Source: Chromera velia
Lineage: Eukaryota > Sar > Chromeraceae
Direction of reading: 5' to 3'
Length of the DNA: 48,635 nt
NCBI GenBank assembly: GCA_018398765.1
Contig: JAHBMJ010000359.1
Span: 1-48,635, forward strand
This document shows, in pieces, positions 2,390-47,277 of the stretch. Under the pieces are notes generated by a model. It saw only the letters and a list, made by a program, of their open reading frames with translations. It did no database searches and was not told the DNA's origin. Numbering within the stretch: the first letter of the stretch is position 1; each line of letters starts with the position of its first letter. The translations under genes and the position numbers were made by a program.

Positions 2390-3241
2390 CTGCAACCGGG
2401 CAGAGGACAGGGGAGACAGAGGGTGTTAAAAAAAAAAAAAACTGTCTGCCCTCAACTCCCGGGTACACACTTCACTGCAAGTTGATGTACACAGAATGAA
2501 CGCACCTGGAGAGGAACACTGGAGCTTGGCATCGGGTTGCGACATCTCGTCCGGCAAAGCGATGGTATGCTAAAGGGGAACTCTCGACGTGATACCTGTG
2601 CACGCCAGAGACAGCCGAAGAACAGACTCAGCTTTAAGAACCGTCAATTTTCTTCTCCGCAGGCTCAACCTTTCAAACTTTCTGATGCTGTGCGTGCTTA
2701 TTTTGGTGTGAGTCTGTTTTGGTTTGAGATGCTCTCAAGTCCTGACAGGTCCGATCCGGATCGATCCGGGTCCCTCAAGGAATCTCAAGGATCCTAATGC
2801 TGGTTGTCAGCCGTATGTCAGCCGTAGAATGCCGCGGCCTCTTGCATGGGGTCCGACCATGTCCGCGACCAATGCATGCACTCACCCTCATGCAGACGCG
2901 CGCATGCAGGTCCCGGCCCGCGCGCAACATTAAAACAACGTACCAACGTACATCAAACAACATCAGCCCTGCAACAATACGGAGCTCCCGTGAGCTGGCC
3001 TTATGCTTCTCCTGTGTCAGCCTTCATCATCCCGTATCTGCAGCGATTCCTAGCGTGTGAAAGTGACGAGCCTTTGTTCAGCACGACGATGCTTCGTCTC
3101 TCTGTATATATTGTGTCGATCCACGGGAGTCGCTCTGGCTTGCAAAAGCATTTTTTTTTCGGTCGGCCGAGCCGTCTCTCTGCTGTTTGTCTGCATGTTC
3201 GTCCTTGATTCGTGAGCTTTCGGCCTGGAAGGCTCAAAAGG
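2390..3241. other. Intergenic, between LRR and ankyrin genes
   Basis: No gene is supported here. An A13 run lies at about 2428-2440. A GATCC/GGATC-rich stretch lies at 2753-2772, and a patch rich in GCATGC and CGCG at 2836-2930. The stretch probably holds the 5' region of the minus-strand LRR gene and the promoter and 5' UTR of the ankyrin gene that starts at 3242. No clear TATA box was seen. Confidence 0.4.
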
Positions 3242-6084
3242 ATGGCGTCGACAGACTCAAATGCTGCAGCTGTTCTTGTAGCAAGTGGAATTCTAGGCTT
3301 TCTGGGTTTCTTGAAACTGTCTTCTGTCTCAAAGGCACTCCTCTCCCTGAGGGATGACCCCTCGTCGCTGGGATACGGAAGCGTGCACCCAGCTTTTTCT
3401 TTTGTGCATGAGAGGGATGACGTCTGGCGTTTCATTGATAACTGTTTTCGGTTTGACGACGCCGAATCCCTGCAGCAGTTCTGTGCTTTGAAGGGGGGCA
3501 CAGCTTGTCTCCCCTTTCTGTTCAAACGCGTAGTGGAGAACTCGCCGGCCTCGCAGAAGTGTGTGCAGTTCCTTTCGAAGCGGGGGGCCACGCCACTGTG
3601 CACAGAAGTCCAGTATGACCGCATTCCTTCCTTGACAGACGCACACTTCGAGGCAATGATCACTCACGGCATGATGCCTCCCAATTCCTGGTTCTCGAGA
3701 GCGGACGTGCAGGGGCAGGGGGAACTGTACGTCCCCATGCTCAGTGCATTGATAGAAGCAGACAAGTTCGGCGCGGCAGAGAGGCTCCTCGAGAAGGGGG
3801 CGAATGCCGACGTCTGCTCGTGGTATACTCGTTTTCCTCCCACACCCCAAACCAGCAGCCGATTGACCCCCCTCCGCATTCTCATTTCCCGATTGGCACG
3901 CGTCAGAGACCCAGAAGATCCCGTCAGTGTGTTGAAGAGACGCGAAGGTCTCTCCCTCCTCCGCCGTCTGGTGTGTGTATGCAAAAAGGCTGGGTGCCTC
4001 CTCTGGAGGGCACGGCCAGGGGTCCAGGGCGGGTGGGGGGAAGGGATCGGCATCATTCATCAAGACCTGACACCCTTAGTCCTTGCATGTATGTACAGAG
4101 ACGCAGAGGCAGTGGGGGTGTTGACAGAGGTACAGGATGTCAATGTTGCTCTTGTGAAGGCTCCTTCTAGGGCTCTTTCCATTCTCTTCCATGTGCTGGG
4201 CCCCACCTGTCGCAATGGTGTCAGTACAGACACAGTTGACTCCCTTTCTGCAGCGACGATAGGACGACTGACCAATTGGGGGGGAGTGGATGTGAATGCA
4301 GTGGACACAAACGGTCACACAGCCCTGTCCCTTGCATGTTCGCTAGGGATGCCGAAAAGTGCAGAGGCGCTCATGAAAGGGGGTTCGACGCTAGGGATGG
4401 TGAAGTGGGGGAAACGGATGAGTGAGTCTCCTGTGCTGAAATCGTTGGAGGCAGATGGAGACTCTCAGACCCGAGTCACTCTATTCAGCCTGCTGCTCGA
4501 GTGGGCAGTCAGCAAAGACTCAGATAGAGAAGGGTTGCTTAGACTTTTTGCTCGTGAGTGCCCCATTAGACTCGTCATGATGACGACAGCAAAGGCAAGA
4601 AGGGAGGCAGAGGCTATCACACTTTTGAACGTCCTCGCTCAGAGGGGGTATGATTTGAAAGTTTTGATGGCCGACGGCCACACAGCCTTGTCCCTCGCGT
4701 GTGATCTTCGTCTGACCTCATCCTTCATCGAATTTCTCTTTGATAAGGGACTGTCAGCAGGGGGTGTGGGTGAGGGGAGAGTGCATCTGCCTCTTGTGGA
4801 GGCTTGCGATAATTTCTCCAACCTGAGAATCGTCTCTCTCCTTCTCCAGAAGGGGGCAGACCCGAACAGACTTGGACTGCGTCAGGGTGTTCTCACTTCG
4901 CCCCTCCAGGCAGCCCTAGATCAGGACCCCACGCGGCTTCAGGGGGGAAGTCCTCTCCTAGAGGCTGTCGTGAGTGTGGTGAGGGTACTGATTGATGCGG
5001 GGGCTCGATGTCCTCGTGCCCCGCCTCCCCTTTCTCAGACAGCGAGCGTCACTAGGTCAAGTGAGAACCTGGGGGCTCCTCCACTTCGGTACAGTCACCT
5101 TTCCCCTGTGATGAAGGTTTGTGAGATGCGGGACGCATGTCTGCTGGGATTTCTGTGTAAGAAGGGGGGGGCAGTGCCGATCGGGGAAAAGGAGCTGGCA
5201 GAGGTCGTTACAGTCTATCTTTCGGACAGAACCAATGACAGCGAGACGCGTGGGGAGGAGGGGGAAGAGATGCAGAGGGTCAGACTTCTCAATCAGTGGC
5301 GCCAGGCAGAAGCACTTTTGCAGGTTGGTGTTTCATGCACATGGTCATACATTCAATGGAGGGGATGGACGTACGTTGTCAATGCGGCAATTAACCGTTT
5401 TCCTTTCTACAAATTCGAGACAACAAAGACATTCTGTAGCATTGGACGATCTCGCTGTCCTTTGTGGCGATCTTTGGAGCATACAACGAGTGTTTCCCTC
5501 CGTGCTTCATGAGCTGTCTTTTTTTTTTTCGGGTTCCTTCCTTCACTTATTGCGCGCGTGCTCGCGAGCAAATACTTGAACATTTGCTTCTCATGTCTGC
5601 ATGCGTGTCCTTTACACGTCCTTTGCTCAGCCTGAACCTCCTTGTGAATCAATCGATGCAGGGCCAGACACTGACAGACGTCTCTGCCCTTCTCTTGACA
5701 CACTGGCCTCCGCATTCAGCGACGTCTCGACGTCCTACGCGCTTCGGTTGTGGGTCATGGCTGATAGATCTGATCTGCCTCGAGGAAGCGCGAGGCCCCG
5801 TTCTGCTGAAAATCATCGAGTGCGTTCCTTCACACGAGATCCTCTATGAATCAATCAAGGATTCCGAGGCAGAGAAAATGATTCCAATCGGCTGGAAGGA
5901 CGGAGTTCAAGCCTTGATAAAGAGAGCGCTTCCAGCCCTTGCCACCGCATTCTCACAGCAGCTTTTGTCTGCATTCCACCACATCATGACAGGAGCCCCC
6001 CTGCGGTTTGAAAAAACCCGAGGGGACCGCAAATCGAAGAACGAACTGGTACAGGAGGTGGTTGCTGCGGCTTGGCAGCTGTAG
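3242..6084 (+). CDS. Ankyrin-repeat protein, two exons
   Basis: Exon 1 is 3242-5323 and exon 2 is 5662-6084, joined in phase 0 (TTGCAG|GTTGGT ... GATGCAG|GG), giving about 834 residues. The reading frame continues into the intron to a stop at 5512, but the codons after 5323 look non-coding. The start is the ATG at 3242 after AAAAGG; upstream in-frame codons lack an ATG. A hydrophobic stretch (about residues 9-30, VLVASGILGFLGFLKL) could be a membrane anchor. Ankyrin units are recognised by repeated NGHTALSLACSLG, DGHTALSLACDLR and LLLQKGADPNR patterns, with looser copies elsewhere (LTPLVLACMYRDAEAV, RLLEKGANADV). Ankyrin repeats mediate protein binding, and no enzymatic domain is visible. Exon 2 encodes a non-ankyrin, helix-rich tail ending VAAAWQL. 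Function is unknown. Confidence 0.85.
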
Positions 6085-6759: not shown

Positions 6760-9533
6760 GGTTGGGTCTTTCCTGGGAAGAAAGGCTGGCAGACAGCAAA
6801 GTGGGTGCAGTAGTAGATGGAGGAAAGACATCCAAGAAGAGAAGACAGTCTGTGAGAAAGCAGAGCACCCGTCAGGCTTGGTGGGACTCACAATGCCGCC
6901 TGATATATTTGAAGGTGAAGGAGGCAGAGGAAAAGGCAAGACATGTTCCAAACCCTTCCCACCCTCTGCGAAAAGAATATGTTAAACTGAGAAGGGAAAG
7001 AGCTCGACTGTTTGCAGTAAAAAGGAGTAAGCTCGAGCAACACACAGCAGAGAGACTAGCTAGAAAAGCAGCAGTTGACCCCTTGAAAGTTTGGCAATGG
7101 AACAGGAAAATCAAAATACAGAGGGGAGGGGATAATAAACCCGCTGCATCTTCTTTCACTCAGTTTTGGGCAGGGGTCTTCGACGGTCCTGGTCTTCCGC
7201 CTGCACCTGTTGGTCTGGCCTTCCCCCCTCCTTCTTAGCCCGCCTTCTCTATACACATGATCGAAGAAACACTGAGAGGAATTGACCCAAAGAAGGCGCT
7301 GGGTTTAGATGGGGTTGGCCCCTGTCACCTCTCGTTATCTTTTGGTTTTTCTCCTCTCTCCCGCTTGCTGCTCTTTGTCTTTTTCAATTTGTTTCACCTT
7401 TTTTCTTTTTGGCCTGAACGCTGGAATGTATTGCGCATTGCTCCCATCCCCAAGGGCCCGCCGAGTCTCGACTGTAACGAATGGCACCCGATCCACATTG
7501 TGGGGCTTCTGAGTAAGATTTTTACTTTATTGATGGACTTAAAGATCAGGAAGGAGATGAAAATTGACGAAAGGCAGCTCGGCTTCAGACAGGGGGTAGG
7601 GACAAGGGAGGCCTTCGCTGCTCTGTCTTCATTAATTCTCAGCTCCAAAAAGAAGAAAAGCCCTCTGATTGCCGCGTTTGTTGATTTCAGCAAGGCGTTT
7701 GATACAGTTTCTCAGATCAAAATATTAGAGAGGCTTAGGGAGGAAGGAGTAAGCCAAGCCGATGTTTGGATGATTCATTCGATATATAGTCAGGTGAAGG
7801 TTTGGGTAGATGGGGCAACAGAATGCTTTCCAGATGGTGGAGGAGTAAAACAAGGCGATCCTCTCTCTTTTCTCCTTTTTTTTCTTTTCATCAACAATCT
7901 GCATAAGTTTGTCAGCTCCAATAATAAAAACAGGAATCAAAGCTTGGCTGGGGGTACTGATAGAGAGACTCCTGTCAGACTGTCTGACGTTTTAATCGAA
8001 AGCATCGGATACGCTGACAACCTTGTTCTGTTTGCTTACAGTGCTTCTAACTTGCAGAAACGCCTGTCTCACCTCGAGGACTATTGTAAGGAGCACGGCC
8101 TGAAGGTGAATTTAAAGAAGACAAAAGTTATGCGTCTCTCCTCCCCCCACCCCGACCTAGTACCCCAGACCCCTTTCCTTTATGAAGGCAGACCAGTGGA
8201 AGCGGTGAGTAAATATAAGTATTTGGGCAACTGGGTTTTTGAGGGCGGGGACCTTAGTAAAACAGTCGAAGCCCACATTTAGGTGGCAGAGAAGGCTTTG
8301 GGGGCGGTGTTTGGTACTCTCTCTTCTCTGGGCTTTGTTTCTCCCTTTTGTAAAATTACTTTGTTCAAGGCCCTCTGGCTGCCAGTCGCGCTGTATGGAT
8401 TGGAAACGATCCCGCTGAGAAAGACAGATGTTGCCTGCCTCGATGCATTACAGTTATGTTTTGTTCGATGTTGTTTTGGTCTCTCCCATCACTCCTTTGT
8501 TTCGCCTTCCCTTCTCTTTCTCTCTCTCAAGCCATTCAGTTCTCTACTTGGTAAGTTGAGTGGGGGCTTCATCCAATGCATTAAATCAATCGACCGTGCT
8601 CTACCCCGGGCAGTGTGGAATGAGTGTTTGGCTGGCTCATGTAAACCCTTCGTTAAGACAGTAAAATGGCTGGCCGTTCCATTAGATTGCTCCCTTTTGT
8701 GGCCTCCATTGCCAAGCACGGTGGGGGACAAGTTTAAAGGGAAGGGCAAGAGCAGAATGAAAAGGGCGGCAAAAAAGATCGTAGAGGGTGCCTGGCTGTC
8801 CGACTGGTTGAAAGAAGAAACTAGAAACATTAGAGACAGAGACGGAATTTTTCCCCACCTTGCAAATCTCTCCCCTTTCCAATCAGAGAATCTGTTCAGA
8901 CAGTGTTTGGCTATGCACCTTCTGAGTGAAAGGAAATGGTGTCCGAGAAGTGAAATGATAGAGTGCAATGTTGAACCTCTGCCAAAGAGTCTGTTGCAGT
9001 CCTCCGCAGGCTTCCGTACGCTTTTCAGGGCTCTCACAGGGGGGGATATAGATAGAACCCAACCGGAACGGCTGTGCAATAAATGTTTGTTCCCCTTGCG
9101 TATGATCAAAGATGAGGTTCATGTTCTGACGGAATGTAAGGACACAGAAAGGGAACAGAACCGGCTGAAAGAACTGTACGAAATTGCGAAGCAGAAAGCA
9201 CCCATTGACATAAGAATACAGATCGCACAACGCATTGCAGGTGCAACCGGGAGGGGCACTTCTGATAATAAGAAAAAAATAAAGGATATGGTGTTACTGT
9301 TATGCACAATTCTGCCTAGAAGCGGTTCCAAAGCTATAGCCGACTGTCTCAAGAAGGTCCATTCTGTCAATAAGGCAAGTTGAGGCGAATCGATCCGATT
9401 GGCATGCAGGCTTCCTCATCCCCCCCCCCATGAATGTGTGCTCTGGGTTGTCCTCAAAGCCTTGCTAGTGGCTTAGGATTTGACGTCGCTAAATCTAGGA
9501 TTTAACCCTCAATCATCATTATCATCATCATCA
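6760..9533 (+). mobile_element. LINE-type non-LTR retrotransposon, 5'-truncated
   Basis: One frame stays open from the left repeat to 9383 except for two TAG stops, at 7236-7238 and 8280-8282; no frameshifts occur. Reverse transcriptase motifs appear in order: KALGLDGVGP, NEWHPI, GFRQG, FVDFSKAFDTV, GVKQGDPLSFLLF, the catalytic box YADN (usually YADD) near 8010-8021, and KVNLKKTKVM. After the second stop comes the thumb region (VALYGLETIPL) and a C-terminal zinc knuckle, C-x2-C ... H-x4-C (CNKC ... HVLTEC) near 9079-9137. The 5' part (endonuclease, ORF1) is missing. The 3' UTR ends in an ATC-rich tail at about 9510-9533, typical of LINEs. The two TAGs are consistent with CAG-to-TAG decay. The element is probably inactive but fairly young. 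Confidence 0.88.
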
Positions 9534-32776: not shown

Positions 32777-34005
32777 TCACACCCCGTTCGCACCTGTTCG
32801 GTCGGTGCTGCAGCATCTCTGCGCCCCCCCCCTCTCACGGGGGCCCTCTCCCACTTCCTCCGCACCCTCTGCGTCGAGAAGGTGGGCCTTCGCTCCGTCT
32901 CGCAACACCGACGTGATACGATTTCTCTGACCGACTCTGTCTACAGAGTCTGCCCCCAGAGAATGTGTGGTTGCAGGCGCGCTTTCCGTTTCACTGTTGG
33001 GTGACGACAAACAGCAGGGCTCTGCAGACTCGCCAACTGGCTGTCTCCTGTTCAACACAAAGTGACCAGTCGTCAGACCGAGACACGTTGACATGAACAA
33101 CTCAAAGTTGTATGTCATCGCTAGAAGCATCGCCAGGTACCTGCATTAATTCATGAACAGGGAGGGAAACAGAGCACATGCAATAGGAAAATCAATATGA
33201 CTTCTCGAGCTGCAAAGAGCACGCAAGAAAGAAAGTGCGCTGGAAGGGAGGGAAATGGAGACAAGAAAACCACCTCTGGACTGCGCTATACCCCTTCCAG
33301 CAGTTGCAGGGCCAAATCCAGTTGAAAAAAAAGACGTCAGAGAGACGGACCGGAAGAGCAACCAACCAAAAAAAAACGGATCCTGAACGAACACTGACCC
33401 AACGATGATGTTGCAGAGGAACAGCAGGAAGGTGAGTGTCTCTGTTTGCCACGTGACACCGCGTTTAGACGCCCTCAGCATCAGTAGTCGTCTGCTTCCA
33501 CACACAAAGGGGGAAAGAAGGTTTTCATGATCGTCTCAATCTTCGTCTCGTCAAGTGCGGACTTGCAACACGACCAGCAAGCACAGCACCGGGGGGGGGG
33601 GGCACGCTTCTACTTCGAGACAAACACACACAGCGGGGGGGACAGAAATGGGGTGTTCCACGGGTGTAAGCGTAAGCAAAAAGAGAGACGAAGAGTGCGT
33701 CACGCTGTCTAGAAGACCGCTGACTACCCCTCAGGAAAGCGTTCTGACCTTGAGAAGATGAGGACATCCGCGAGGAAACCCAAGCCGAAAGCCAAGAGGC
33801 ACCCCAGAGCAAAGAGAAGAGGCGTTCTCAGAACGAATCCGGGGAAAAGCCAGACGATGCACGATGTCTGTGTCTTGCCCCCCCTCATGGCTGACTCGAA
33901 TCTGCACACACCAAGGCACCCACACATACACACATACACATGCAGACACATGCACACATACACACATACACACACATGCACACACTTCACACACACCTTC
34001 ACACA

Positions 34006-34049
<44 letters not shown>

Positions 34050-35788
34050 CAGCGGTTGCAAATAGCAAAACGGGAGCTTCTGTGGAGCTGCCACAATCGA
34101 AGCAGGTGGGATTGCGTAGAAGAAATCAGGAGGGAGAGAAAAAGAGAGGACAGACACACAGACTGAATGACCTTTTCTTTCCTTCCTTGCTTCATCTCAT
34201 CCAGCCAGCCAGCCAGCCAGCCAGCTAGCCAGCCGCCACACACACACGCACACACACAAAAGGGGGGGGGGGGCAGGGAGGAAGGGACAGGAAGAGAGGC
34301 CAACACACGCTGACGAGGGAGGCTTAACAGCAGGCCTCTAGCTGCACCCACAAGGCAAGGCTCTCACCCACCCGAGCATGAGCATCGAAGTGGCCCCACT
34401 GCAGAATTCGTCCCCCCCCCCCNCCGCTGCCTTCGATGCAGGCGGACACTTCAGCCCGCATTCGAAGTGATGCACTCCGTCGTCTGGGCACAGGTCGCTC
34501 TTCTCCCAGTCCCAGCACACCGCCTTCTCTCCGCAAGTGTCGTTCCTCATGCACTGCATCCAGCAGTACACCTCCCCTGCAGCGCACTGCGTGTCTGCCA
34601 AACGTCTCCACATACTCTCTGCATCCCCCCCCTCTATCTGCTCGGCCAGTTCTCTCCTGCTGATGATGTGCAGATCCTCAGAGGACGAAGAAGAAGACGG
34701 TACTTGAGGGGGCGCTTTGCCTTCATAGAAGAAGTCGAAGAATTCCCTTCCCTTATCCCCAGCATAGACGGCAGTGACACCCTTCTTGGGCATAAACATC
34801 CTGCCGAACACCTGTCGCTCCTCGTCAAACCGCTTCACTGCATGCAGACAAGGACGCACACCCCGACCCAGGCGGTCAACGTTCAACCCTGCCCACGACG
34901 CCAATCCATCCCCTACCAAGACCAGAGCTGTGCGTTCAACGTCCTTGAGTTCCACTGCCCCGAGCTCTGTGACCAGGCTCTGGTCCTCTGAGGGGGCTAG
35001 GACGAGGAACAGGCCCCTGTCTGTGTGCAGAGGCATGGCCAAGGAGTCAAATTGAGGAGGGCGTGCATGCTCCTCGTCAACGGGAGGCCTGCAAGCAGAC
35101 ACGGAGAAGCGAGGGAAACTTCATGGAGAAAGGAGGAAGAGGAGGCCGCCCTCCTCGATTTCTCGTTCCGACAGCGACAGCCCACCTTCCATCAAACCAA
35201 TCCCTCATGCACCCACACGCACTTGTCTCAGACTGACTTGTACACATGGAAGTGATCCAAGTGTGTCCCCTCCAACACCGTCTCCACCAAACCCCTTCGA
35301 CCCCCATCCACCCCCTCAAACTCCAGAGCCCCCGCACCCAGAGAACTGTGCACCAGAGTCTGCACAAAGGCGTCTCCAATGGAGAACATGGATTCCCGGA
35401 GAGACCGAGCACCCTCACTCAGTGTTTCTGAACACCCGCTCGGTGTGGTAGGAAAGTGCTGATCGGATGTCAGGGCCAGAGTCGCTCTGGTGGACCCATC
35501 CACAAGGTCCACCCTCGAGGCCTTTCCCGTCTCCAGCGCTTCCTCCACACACGCAGGAAACTCCCTGCGAAGAGTCTCGATCCCAGCTGCCCATCCTGGG
35601 GCGTCTGTGACAGCGACGATGCCGTCGTGTTGCACTGCGGAGACGAATCGTTTGTGCTCAGATCCCACCAAGCCCCTTTGGAGGCTCTCAAAGCTGAGAG
35701 TCACCGGCGTCCATGCAGAGGCTCCCCATACAAATGTGAGCAAAAGAAACTCACCAAAGGTACAGGAACCAGACAATCGGCGAGACAT
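32777..35788 (-). CDS. 2OG-Fe(II) oxygenase-like domain fused to CTR copper transporter
   Basis: Five exons on the minus strand, 35238-35788, 34372-35088, 33749-33901, 33399-33491 and 32777-33140, join in frame (all phase 2) into about 625 residues. The N-terminus (MSRRLSGSCTFGEFLLLTF) looks like a signal peptide. Residues about 30-290 resemble an isopenicillin-N-synthase-like dioxygenase: HTD (His205, Asp207) and His266 (CLHAVKR) form a likely iron triad. Arg275 follows, but Val277 replaces the usual Ser. A Cys-rich segment follows (CWMQC, CGLKC; about 360-405), then a Gly run with an unknown base at 34423. The C-terminus is a CTR channel: an M-x-M-x-G-F motif (MLMLGF), TM1 (FPGFVLRTPLLFALG), TM2 (TLTFLLFLCNIIVG) and TM3 with MTYN and GLTTG. 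CTR proteins import Cu(I) as trimers. The oxygenase half should face outside the cell or the lumen. Introns hold CA/GA and CAGC repeats. Confidence 0.85.
33906..34050. repeat. (CA)n(GA)n microsatellite in transporter intron
   Basis: CA-rich sequence from 33906 to 34022 is followed directly by (GA)14 to 34050. It lies in intron 2 of the transporter gene. On the sense (minus) strand it reads CT then GT. Confidence 0.9.
34201..34231. repeat. (CAGC)n microsatellite
   Basis: Seven or so tandem CAGC units with one CTAG variant lie in the same intron of the transporter gene. Confidence 0.9.
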
Positions 35789-36282
35789 TCTGAAACAAGG
35801 AAAAAAAGTGCAGATGCGAACTGATACAGAGAGTCTGGGACAGGTCAGACGCCCCTTTTCATACAAGCCCAAAATTCACGACACTCGGACCCCTCTGCAT
35901 CGAAGCTTCCTGAACACGTCCCGAGACGAACCACTTTGCAATTTTCGGACAGCTCCTTCGGATGCAGAAGTTTGAGGTGTCCCTATGGTGTCCCTCAAGC
36001 TCCAGAGACAGTCCAGAGAGCATGCATGCAAAGGGTTCATTCGGTATTCATTGGGTGAAAGGCGAGCACTGACCGAGCTAAGGATCGCGGAGACGGCAAA
36101 GGTGGAGACGCGGGAGACTTGCAAGCAAACTGACCAGCCTCGCAGAAGTCTGGTGACGCTGGTCCGACATGATTGGTCCGACTGACAGTGAGAGGAAGGG
36201 GAAGCAGAACAAAGATTGAAGTGAGTCACGTCGTCCTCGATCTTTCTCGGGGAGTCTTGCTCACTTACGTCGTGGATTGTGT
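35789..36282. promoter_or_regulatory. Divergent promoter region, transporter and phosphatase
   Basis: 494 bp separate the start codons of two oppositely oriented genes, so both promoters must lie here. A GCATGCATGC palindrome is at about 36020-36029. Just upstream of the transporter ATG on the minus strand, TTGTTTCAG|AATG could be a 5' UTR acceptor. No TATA box was identified. Confidence 0.5.
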
Positions 36283-36828
36283 ATGAGATTTGGGGGAGTG
36301 AGGAGGTGTATCGCCCCATTCGTTTGCGCTTTCTCTCTCATGCGACTTCTGCTTCCTTTCTGCTTCGCGGGTATCGGGAAGATGATGCAAAAGTCTGGAA
36401 TGACCCCGGAGCTTGAGCAGCTCTACAGCCATATCGCCAGTAAGCGCCCCGTGCAGAGGTCGAAATTCAAGGAATGGATGAAGGTGATGGATGCGAAGAG
36501 CGACTACTCAAATATCTTGAAGAAGCAAACGGCCGAATTGGGGCTTGCCTATGATGAAGAGACAGGCAGATTGAAGTACACCAAAGATTTTGAGCCTGTC
36601 CCGATCTCTTATGAGATCTGCTACGTGCGACACGGAAAGACTGCAGGAAACACCGAGCCGAGGGTCTATCAGGTCGGTGGGGTGGAGAGTGCTCCTTGAC
36701 GGTCTCAGAAAGATAACCGAAGAGAAGTTCAAGCAGGACGCTGAATCCTTTATGCCTCATGTCTGTGCAGGGACAGGTGGACTACCCGGAGAATGCTCTG
36801 AACGAGATCGGACTGCAGCAGGTCTGTG

Positions 36829-44744: not shown

Positions 44745-46640
44745 TCACGTGGAGGGGGCACCCCAGGGGAAAGCCTCTGCCTCTGGGTCCCTCTTCACCG
44801 TCATCGTCGCCGCCTTGTCGAATGCTGTGTAGTTCATTTGCTCATCGACTTTCAGAAGAATAAGGGAGGGAATCCCACGAATCCCAAACTTCCCTGCAGC
44901 CATCCCTGCCTGTGCACTTCCGTGCTTGATGGCAATCCACGGCATTTCAGAGAAATACTCATTGAACTGTTCGGTGTTTCGGTCAAAGGATGCGAAAACA
45001 ATCTCGAAAGGTTCCCCCTCCCCCTTCAACTTTTCATATACCTTTGCGAGTTTCGGGGTGAACCCACGGCAAGGGGGGCACCAATGGGCAGAAAAGTACA
45101 GACCTACGACCTTGTTTTTCATCGACTGCAACGAGGGTGTGTCCCCTGATTTGCCCACAAACTCATCTCCGATCAAATCCTTCAACTGCCCGTCTCCCTT
45201 GCCGGAAGGCTGGGGTGGGGGGGCAGAGCCTTCGCTAGTGTGCAGAGAGGCACCCCAAGGGAATCGGGCTCCTTCGAGATCCCTACTGATGGTACTTCGC
45301 CCCTCTCTGTCAAACATTCGGTAGCTGCCCATCTTTGAGACTTCAAGCAGCACACAGGCAGGGATGCCTCTGATACCGAACGTCGCACTGATTTGCCCCT
45401 TTGTTGCCCTTTCTTCAAAAGGAAGGGCTTTCCAGGGCATGGACGAGAAGTACTCGTCAAACCCCGATTGGTTCTGGTCGCAACTCACGAAGATGACCTC
45501 AAACGGCTTTCCCCCCCCCTGAAGCTTTCTGTAGAGGTCTGCCAACTGAGGTGTGAAGGCACGACAAGGGGGGCACCAGTGGGCAGAAACGTACAGGGCG
45601 ACAACCTTCCCATGCATGCTGTCAACCTTGTAAAGCTTCCCACTGTTGTCAACCACTGCGTCCCCAACCAGATCCCCCAAAGTGCCCGACTGTGACGCTG
45701 CCTTCTCCTCTGGCGGCAGGCCGGTGTCACAGTCGACAGAGAGCCAGGAGGTCTCTCCGGAAGGGGACTTCATGGGGGTCTTTCCTTTCCTCACTGTATA
45801 CCTTCTGGGACCTTCTTTTGTCACACCCCCTGCTGCACCTTTCAATTCAATCACGTGTCTCTTTGCCTCCTCCAAACTCTCGTGAACGGAGTTGCTTCCG
45901 GCTGCGTAACAGCTAAGGTATGTGTCTGGGAGTTTTTTCCAACATCCGTCTTCCTTTTCCTCCTCTTGTTTCCCTCTGTCACTAGCTTTACTGTCAACCC
46001 GAGTGGGAGGCAGACCGTCCTTGTTTACTTTTTTGATTAACCAACTGACCTCTCCTGAGGCGGAGGGTTGGAGTGTCTTTCCCTTTCTGATCGAATACTT
46101 CGACCACTCTCGCGTCACCCCTCCGGCAACAGGGTAGAGCTGTGCTGCACGGATGAGTGCGTCGTCGAGATTTAAGTATTTGGCTCTATCTGCATAACCT
46201 CCCAGGAAACTGTCCTGCTTTCTCTCGAAAGTCCCTGCAGGCACCTCGACCGTTTCACCGGGACTCTCCGGCTTTATGGGATCTCCGTTGAAGATCCAGG
46301 AGACCTCACCTGAAGGGGAGGGACAGGGATTCTTCCCCCTCCTCAGGGTGTATCCTCGACACTCCTTCGTGATGCCTCCTGCCTTGATCTCAAGACATTT
46401 GGTCTGAGCGGAGGCGAGGGTCTGGTGAACTTTCCCTCCCTCTGCGTAGCACCCAAGATACATGCCTGGATACTCCCTCCACTCCCCGCCCTCACCAGAC
46501 TGAACCGCATTCACTGCGGGCTCTTCAACGACAATTGCCGACTCTTCATCAAGCTGCTGGGGCTCGACTGAAACGTTTGGTGCAGAGGGGACTGCAGGGA
46601 CAGTCGCGGCACTACGGTCAACGGAAGCGGAGCAACCCAT
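44745..46640 (-). CDS. Nucleoredoxin-like protein: three novel repeats plus two thioredoxin domains
   Basis: Intronless, 631 residues. I chose the ATG at 46640 because it gives MGCSAS, a classic N-myristoylation plus palmitoylation signal (Gly2, Cys3); the frame is open upstream with no clear coding features. Residues about 53-116, 136-201 and 231-300 are three related units. Each has Y(L)x(C/G)YA near the start, GG(I/V)T(K/R)E in the middle and RKGKT...SGE(V/T)SW at the end. Two tryparedoxin/nucleoredoxin-type thioredoxin domains follow, with identical active sites WCPPC at 355-359 and 520-524 and the cis-Pro signature FGIRGIP in each (421-427, 585-591). Such proteins reduce or rearrange disulphides in partner proteins. 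Membrane attachment on the cytosolic face is inferred from the N-terminus. The lack of introns contrasts with its neighbours. Confidence 0.93.
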   Translation of the reverse strand: MGCSASVDRSAATVPAVPSAPNVSVEPQQLDEESAIVVEEPAVNAVQSGEGGEWREYPGMYLGCYAEGGKVHQTLASAQTKCLEIKAGGITKECRGYTLRRGKNPCPSPSGEVSWIFNGDPIKPESPGETVEVPAGTFERKQDSFLGGYADRAKYLNLDDALIRAAQLYPVAGGVTREWSKYSIRKGKTLQPSASGEVSWLIKKVNKDGLPPTRVDSKASDRGKQEEEKEDGCWKKLPDTYLSCYAAGSNSVHESLEEAKRHVIELKGAAGGVTKEGPRRYTVRKGKTPMKSPSGETSWLSVDCDTGLPPEEKAASQSGTLGDLVGDAVVDNSGKLYKVDSMHGKVVALYVSAHWCPPCRAFTPQLADLYRKLQGGGKPFEVIFVSCDQNQSGFDEYFSSMPWKALPFEERATKGQISATFGIRGIPACVLLEVSKMGSYRMFDREGRSTISRDLEGARFPWGASLHTSEGSAPPPQPSGKGDGQLKDLIGDEFVGKSGDTPSLQSMKNKVVGLYFSAHWCPPCRGFTPKLAKVYEKLKGEGEPFEIVFASFDRNTEQFNEYFSEMPWIAIKHGSAQAGMAAGKFGIRGIPSLILLKVDEQMNYTAFDKAATMTVKRDPEAEAFPWGAPST

Positions 46641-47277
46641 TTGAATTCTCTGTCGACGAGGAGCAACTCTTTCTGGAAGGGAGCTGAAGTGGAAGGACTG
46701 TGGGCGATCTACTTGTGCGATTGAACAGCTGTGGGGACACACCTACTAGACAGATCGTAGGAGGCAATGGGGAAGAAGATCTTGCATGTTGGAACACAGC
46801 TAGCTAGTCTTTGTGTATATACGATCGATCGATATGTGAAATCATGCATGAGTGCACATGGTGCACATGCATGCATGCATGTTTTTGGAAATTAAATTTC
46901 TTCGCGCGGAACATGCATGCATGCGCGGAACATGCGCGCGTGTCACGACGAGAAGTCACGAGATCGAATTAAGTCGATCTTCGAGAAGGTTTTGGGATGT
47001 TTTGGGCCGAGTCTGAAAGCTCTTATTAATATATACGCGTTGTCTAACACAGGCTCAGTGACACTGAGCTTCAACATATCAAATAAACTGTGTAGCTTGT
47101 GACAGCCAGGTTGCTTGTTCAAGCTTCTTGGACTGGGGGATCGTTTGGCGGATATTGATCGACGCACTGAATAAGTAAAGTGCAGAACGTCAAACAACAG
47201 AGACTTGCTGCCCCCGTGATCCGGGGTCCTCTAGGGTCGCATCTGGGAAAGGATTCTGTCACTGCTTTGTTGATGCA
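46641..47277. promoter_or_regulatory. Divergent upstream region with TGCATGCA cluster
   Basis: It lies between the start codons of the nucleoredoxin (minus) and zinc-finger (plus) genes. Between 46845 and 46940 there are repeated palindromes: GTGCACATGGTGCAC, (CATG) runs at 46866-46881, and two copies of GCGGAACATGC followed by GCATGC or GCGCGC. TGCATGC motifs are binding sites of ApiAP2 factors in apicomplexans; a role here is inference. ATCGATCGATCGAT is at about 46820-46833. Confidence 0.45.

Follow-up and report, generated by a model that had tools for sequence, protein, structure and literature searches.

CTR proteins are usually small. The Chlamydomonas proteins CTR1 and CTR2, which reportedly carry a Cys-Met motif, resemble the protein described here in being algal CTRs with Cys residues in the extracellular part, and neither of them is known to have an oxygenase-like domain. 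The MxxxM-x12-GxxxG motif is characteristic of the COPT/CTR family according to a rice COPT paper, which also describes Met motifs as generally abundant in ordinary CTR N-termini (PMC3103425), and the N-terminus of hCTR1 is described as disordered and rich in His and Met (PMC12731240). Cryptococcus Cbi1/Bim1 is described as LPMO-like and without LPMO redox activity; it binds copper and associates with Ctr1 (PMC9258870).

The window analysed here, meaning the whole stretch of 48,635 nucleotides of Chromera velia DNA (contig JAHBMJ010000359.1), contains on its minus strand, from 35788 to 32777, a predicted five-exon gene with GT donors and AG acceptors that yields a stop-free frame of 625 amino acids. 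The predicted protein is like CTR/COPT proteins (PF04145; CTR1 chimera structures 6m97 and 6m98) in its predicted TM regions, the MxM before TM1, the MxxxM-x12-GxxxG motif and the Cys residues in the predicted cytosolic tail, whereas it differs from an ordinary CTR in having about 345 residues of an oxygenase-like domain and a Cys-rich linker ahead of the pore, and from hCTR1 in having two CC pairs in the tail where hCTR1 has HCH. The ectodomain is like the DIOX/isopenicillin-N-synthase-like oxygenases (PF03171) in the HxD...H...R order, in a G-D/E followed by a Trp before the second His, and in a Pro nine residues after the Arg, but it lies below Pfam detection, has lost the Ser of RxS and is apparently secreted, membrane-tethered and fused to a transporter. 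Cbi1/Bim1 is alike in being a copper-binding oxygenase relative serving a CTR importer, copper binding being putative in the present protein, and differs in its LPMO family, histidine brace, separate polypeptide and fungal origin; the parallel is one of working principle, not of membership (PMC9258870). No CTR with an oxygenase ectodomain was found among open-licence PMC papers judged by title, in agreement with the original prediction, which knew of no described case.

Predicted gene and its exons

Two homologues serve as references throughout: P0001, a predicted protein of 615 amino acids found by phmmer at E 1.8e-23 with about 30% identity, and P0002, a transcript-derived protein of 382 amino acids (source label mmetsp, named as a complete transcript ORF). 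The features of the gene, in the order in which they are read on the minus strand, are:

35238..35788, minus strand: exon 1, residues 1-184, with a signal-like N-terminus and the first part of the ectodomain, LDHFHVYK at its end; donor GTCAGT; LDHFHVY is identical in P0001
34372..35088, minus strand: exon 2, with the remaining ectodomain (H205, D207, G243-D244, W249, H266, R275, FGRM..P) followed by the Cys-rich linker and by MLMLG; top oxygenase-profile score among 56 ORFs of the window
34423, no strand assigned: ambiguous base N in a G-run within exon 2, read as residue X; the frame downstream agrees with P0001 and P0002
33902..34371, minus strand: intron 2, GT-AG, rich in TG repeats, separating the Met motif from TM1
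33749..33901, minus strand: exon 3, the TM1 region of the CTR; this part of the A3 profile is weak alone against 6m97 (i-E 0.56)
33399..33491, minus strand: exon 4, the TM1-TM2 loop and the start of TM2
32777..33140, minus strand: exon 5, the remainder of TM2 with MLLAM, the TM3 region with GLTTG, and the tail with CC pairs at 547-548 and 614-615; best PF04145 match of the genome

All four introns interrupt a codon after its second base. The original prediction had joined five phase-consistent exons and had named the junctions 34372/33901 and 35238/35088; the exons are found at these places in one 625-aa frame, and both junctions lie in the sequence where they had been put. The N at 34423, which is likely an assembly uncertainty, accounts for the single residue X in the protein. 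The pattern HTD...H followed by Arg, with Val after Arg-275, had also been read from the sequence, and it is indeed present: HTD occupies residues 205-207, His-266 and Arg-275 follow, and position 277 is Val.

Exon 1 opens with a Met and a short run of hydrophobic residues, and by eye this N-terminus looks signal-like. In the window protein, hydropathy exceeds 1.6 only within the CTR domain, and P0001 has an N-terminal peak; the N-terminus of the window protein falls below the threshold that the N-terminus of P0001 passes.

Conserved fusion to a predicted copper transporter

A search for the same architecture, which the original prediction had proposed, returned P0001, in which the parts follow in the same full order, and P0002, which has most of them. 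P0001 contains LDHFHVY, HTD, the FGRM strand, GEVYCWMxC, TTMFMDGF and the CTR in one chain. P0002 has the latter half of the ectodomain in one protein with the linker and the CTR; its start lies after HTD, and it is either naturally shorter or cut at its start. The precomputed domains of both proteins consist of PF04145 alone. The ectodomain piece of exon 2 taken by itself matches each of P0001 and P0002 at E 0.004 and beats 100 shuffles, and the Cys-rich piece by itself matches the two relatives at E 2.5e-6 and 5e-7, beating 100 shuffles in each case. Exon 1 gives a weak match: its piece has the seven-residue identity LDHFHVY with P0001 at E 0.012 and no match to P0002. Among single residues, P0001 shares H205, D207, H266 and R275 with the window protein, and P0002 shares H266 and R275.

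The exon 2/3 joint restores the motif M.M.GF. If two neighbouring genes had been wrongly joined here, one for a secreted oxygenase-like protein with a stop near 34338 and one for a CTR whose start would lie among the TG repeats, the unspliced frame would fit, as it stops ten codons past MLMLG. However, P0001 and P0002 hold the linker and the CTR in a single protein and carry TTMFMDGF uninterrupted at the joint, and a separate CTR would be without its Met motif; the two-gene model is extremely improbable and was rejected on these homologues. The uninterrupted motif also backs the splice joint MLMLG|F, which had originally been predicted from phase alone. At the level of sequence, the homologues and the splice phase together make it secure that the ectodomain and the CTR belong to one predicted gene, and the fusion first proposed for this locus appears to be conserved.

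Further relatives were sought with profiles and patterns. The A1 profile, built from two proteins, found nothing beyond P0001 in the protein database, where 7991 candidates sharing most words were scored. NCBIfam searched with A1 and PHROGs searched with A3, a profile of three proteins, gave nothing at E up to 10. Three scans of viral contigs gave 24, 90 and 16 pattern matches and no relatives, one of these scans having used alignment A2, in which exon 1 was misplaced; 48 pattern matches in prokaryote genome contigs likewise included no relatives. Elsewhere in the Chromera genome no relative of the ectodomain was found at E up to 1: all five matches of one search and the single match of a second were the window gene itself.

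The PF04145 match of the window protein covers residues 482-533 and reaches 35.4 bits, the cut-off being 25.3. MxxxM-x12-GxxxG is exact at residues 509-530 and is also exact in P0001 and P0002, and MxM precedes TM1 in all three proteins, as TSMLMLGF in the window protein (from residue 417) and as TTMFMDGF in the other two. Both the homologues and the splice phase support the CTR motif set of MxM and GxxxG that had been noted from the sequence, and the CTR identity of the C-terminal part of the predicted protein is secure. The A3 profile aligns with the solved CTR1 chimera 6m97 at E 3.1e-9 overall; region by region, TM2-TM3 reach an i-E of 1.4e-5, and TM1 is weak. The hydropathy of the CTR part shows peaks for TM1 and TM2. 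With regard to the complete three-TM CTR of the original claim, hydropathy gives TM1 and TM2 and the alignment to 6m97 covers TM2-TM3, but TM3 has no separate hydropathy peak and the alignment of TM1 is weak.

The linker encoded by window positions 34372-34586 contains nine Cys residues, and one more lies at the start of TM1. Counted over the linker and the start of TM1, there are ten Cys residues in each of the three proteins, with partly conserved spacing, and P0001 and P0002 have an extra Cys shortly upstream of the linker, at positions 336 and 120, respectively. Because the number of Cys residues predicted to lie outside the cell is even, disulfides are suggested more than free thiols. On the other side of the membrane, the window protein, P0001 and P0002 each have two CC pairs in their predicted cytosolic tails.

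In the 177.8-Mb assembly, the window gene is the best PF04145 match. PF04145 matches another 31 loci at E up to 5, in five cases above the cut-off, and none of the 31 has MxxxM-x11-13-GxxxG in any of six frames, a count that an intron-split motif would escape. As the sole carrier of the signature motif among the 32 PF04145 matches (E up to 5), the window gene may encode the main copper importer of the genome. Six of the other loci (L002, L003, L026, L027, L033 and L034) were considered as further CTRs and rejected; by eye they are repeat-rich sequence.

Probable oxygenase ancestry of the ectodomain

The original prediction described the ectodomain as a 2OG-Fe(II)-type domain. Pfam oxygenase models give no match to the window protein or to P0001 at E up to 10, and the window is absent from the 16 PF03171 places of the genome found at E up to 1, remaining below the PF03171 cut-off. 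Seven same-genome oxygenases (L005-L008, L010, L011 and L016) of the 16 PF03171 places, with nine left out, were combined in the A5 profile, and residues 28-330 of the window protein were combined with P0001 in an ectodomain profile. The ectodomain profile scores 30.5 against A5, a value that none of 400 column shuffles reaches; the highest of them is 24.5 and their mean 13.3, and reversing the profile lowers the score to 14.6. P0001 alone scores 26.0, the best of 150 shuffles being 22.2; the window ectodomain alone scores 24.8, with one of 150 shuffles higher, and the P0002 fragment scores 16.0, with at least five of 150 shuffles higher. The linker and CTR half of the window protein scores 11.5 against the full A5. 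When the 56 ORFs of the window with 150-700 amino acids are ranked against A5, the exon-2 ORF comes first, at 25.5 against 19.1 for the next, and the exon-1 ORF lies outside the top eight.

A yardstick for these scores is given by holding out each oxygenase in turn. L016 (1339-2577, minus strand) is a divergent oxygenase of the same genome with a PF03171 score of 24.8 bits against a cut-off of 23, and when held out it scores 29.7 against the other six, no higher than the ectodomain against the full A5 profile; the remaining oxygenases, held out, score 102-204. Against the seven leave-one-out profiles of six members, the ectodomain scores 24.0-33.0. In the profile alignment, HTD falls onto the HxD of the family and GD onto its G-D/E. 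The local alignment ends before the second His, and the second His, R275 and the Pro nine residues past R275 were matched by eye to the general family pattern. The Fe-triad pattern HxD...H consists of H205, D207 and H266; P0001 has the same triad, and P0002, which begins beyond HTD, has the second His.

A thin oxygenase profile, assembled from a typed consensus and three PDB rows, gives HMMER E values of 0.16-0.62 for three sequences, which are not significant, and an hhalign score of 7.45, with at least ten of 200 shuffles higher. The hhalign probability for the ectodomain against oxygenases is 12-20%, and AlphaFold run with three sequences gives two models with pLDDT of 36.3 and 32.3, too low for either to be usable. 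These values, together with the absence of a Pfam match, would suit a new conserved extracellular domain on a CTR that does not have the 2OG-oxygenase fold and in which HTD...H...R is coincidental. This is unlikely, however, as the observed profile score is beyond all 400 shuffles, HTD and G-D/E align to the family's own positions, and L016, the weakest of the seven oxygenases, does not outscore the ectodomain when it is held out. An oxygenase ancestry of the ectodomain is probable, with moderate support, and the original description is supported as distant profile similarity, with no Pfam oxygenase match.

The RxS motif keeps its Arg in all three proteins, but its Ser is replaced by Val at position 277 of the window protein and by Trp in both P0001 and P0002. 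Because this replacement is found in three of three proteins, ordinary binding of 2-oxoglutarate by the predicted ectodomain is doubtful, and the doubt about catalysis that had been raised from the window Val alone is strengthened. HxD...H normally binds Fe(II), and therefore the conserved ligands fit an active enzyme too. An active Fe(II) oxygenase, either extracellular or in the lumen of the secretory pathway and coupled to the channel, could modify a copper ligand or an exported substrate, with Arg-275 using a partner other than Ser. The conservation of H205, D207 and R275 with P0001 and of H266 and R275 with both relatives is consistent with such an enzyme, and RxS is not universal among oxygenases. 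The loss of the Ser in all three proteins and the absence of a Pfam match argue against it, as does the scarcity of 2-oxoglutarate outside cells, and we regard an active enzyme as rather unlikely.

Proposed copper loading and the genomic setting

The preferred reading, to which we give slightly less than even odds, is a copper importer of the CTR type whose N-terminal domain would be secreted, would come from the DIOX/isopenicillin-N-synthase branch of 2-oxoglutarate/Fe(II) oxygenases and would bind copper and load the pore. A putative signal peptide would send the N-terminus outside, which is the normal side for a CTR. Retaining the 2-His-1-carboxylate pattern (H205, D207, H266) without the Ser that holds 2-oxoglutarate together with the Arg, the ectodomain would no longer be an ordinary 2OG oxygenase and would bind a metal, most likely copper. 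The linker may then relay copper to MxM and to the MxxxM pore, and inside the cell the CC pairs of the tail may pass Cu(I) to chaperones. The kept metal-ligand pattern and the doubtful co-substrate site fit a sensor as well as a carrier, so that the ectodomain might instead sense a metal or oxygen and gate or regulate the channel without delivering copper, a role that we consider quite improbable.

To our knowledge, the uptake of organically bound copper by algae is poorly understood. It is possible, rather than probable, that the copper-loading importer proposed here represents a conserved class in microbial eukaryotes, in which the transporter's own extracellular metallo-domain, derived from a 2-oxoglutarate oxygenase, would capture copper or oxidatively free it from organic ligands and feed the CTR pore, thereby combining transporter and loading factor in one chain. 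If so, an oxygenase-derived ectodomain fused to the pore would offer a directly testable answer to how algae take up ligand-bound copper, and it would be a second case, beside fungal Cbi1/Bim1, of an oxygenase relative used in copper import.

At E up to 0.001, the assembly has 58 matches to chlorophyll-binding proteins, but it has no match to Photo_RC (PF00124), and because of this combination it is taken as that of a photosynthetic eukaryote without plastid contigs. Four other frames were seen in the window. Positions 36220-36696 (plus strand) hold a frame with YVRHGKTAGN that by eye resembles a histidine-phosphatase exon and has no Pfam match at E 0.001. A reverse transcriptase domain (PF00078, E 3.5e-24) at 7239-8279 (plus strand) marks a retroelement relic or copy. 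A 767-aa frame at 3209-5509 (plus strand) contains ankyrin repeats (PF12796), and a 664-aa frame at 44751-46742 (minus strand) contains two thioredoxin-like stretches (PF13905, E 4.3e-48).
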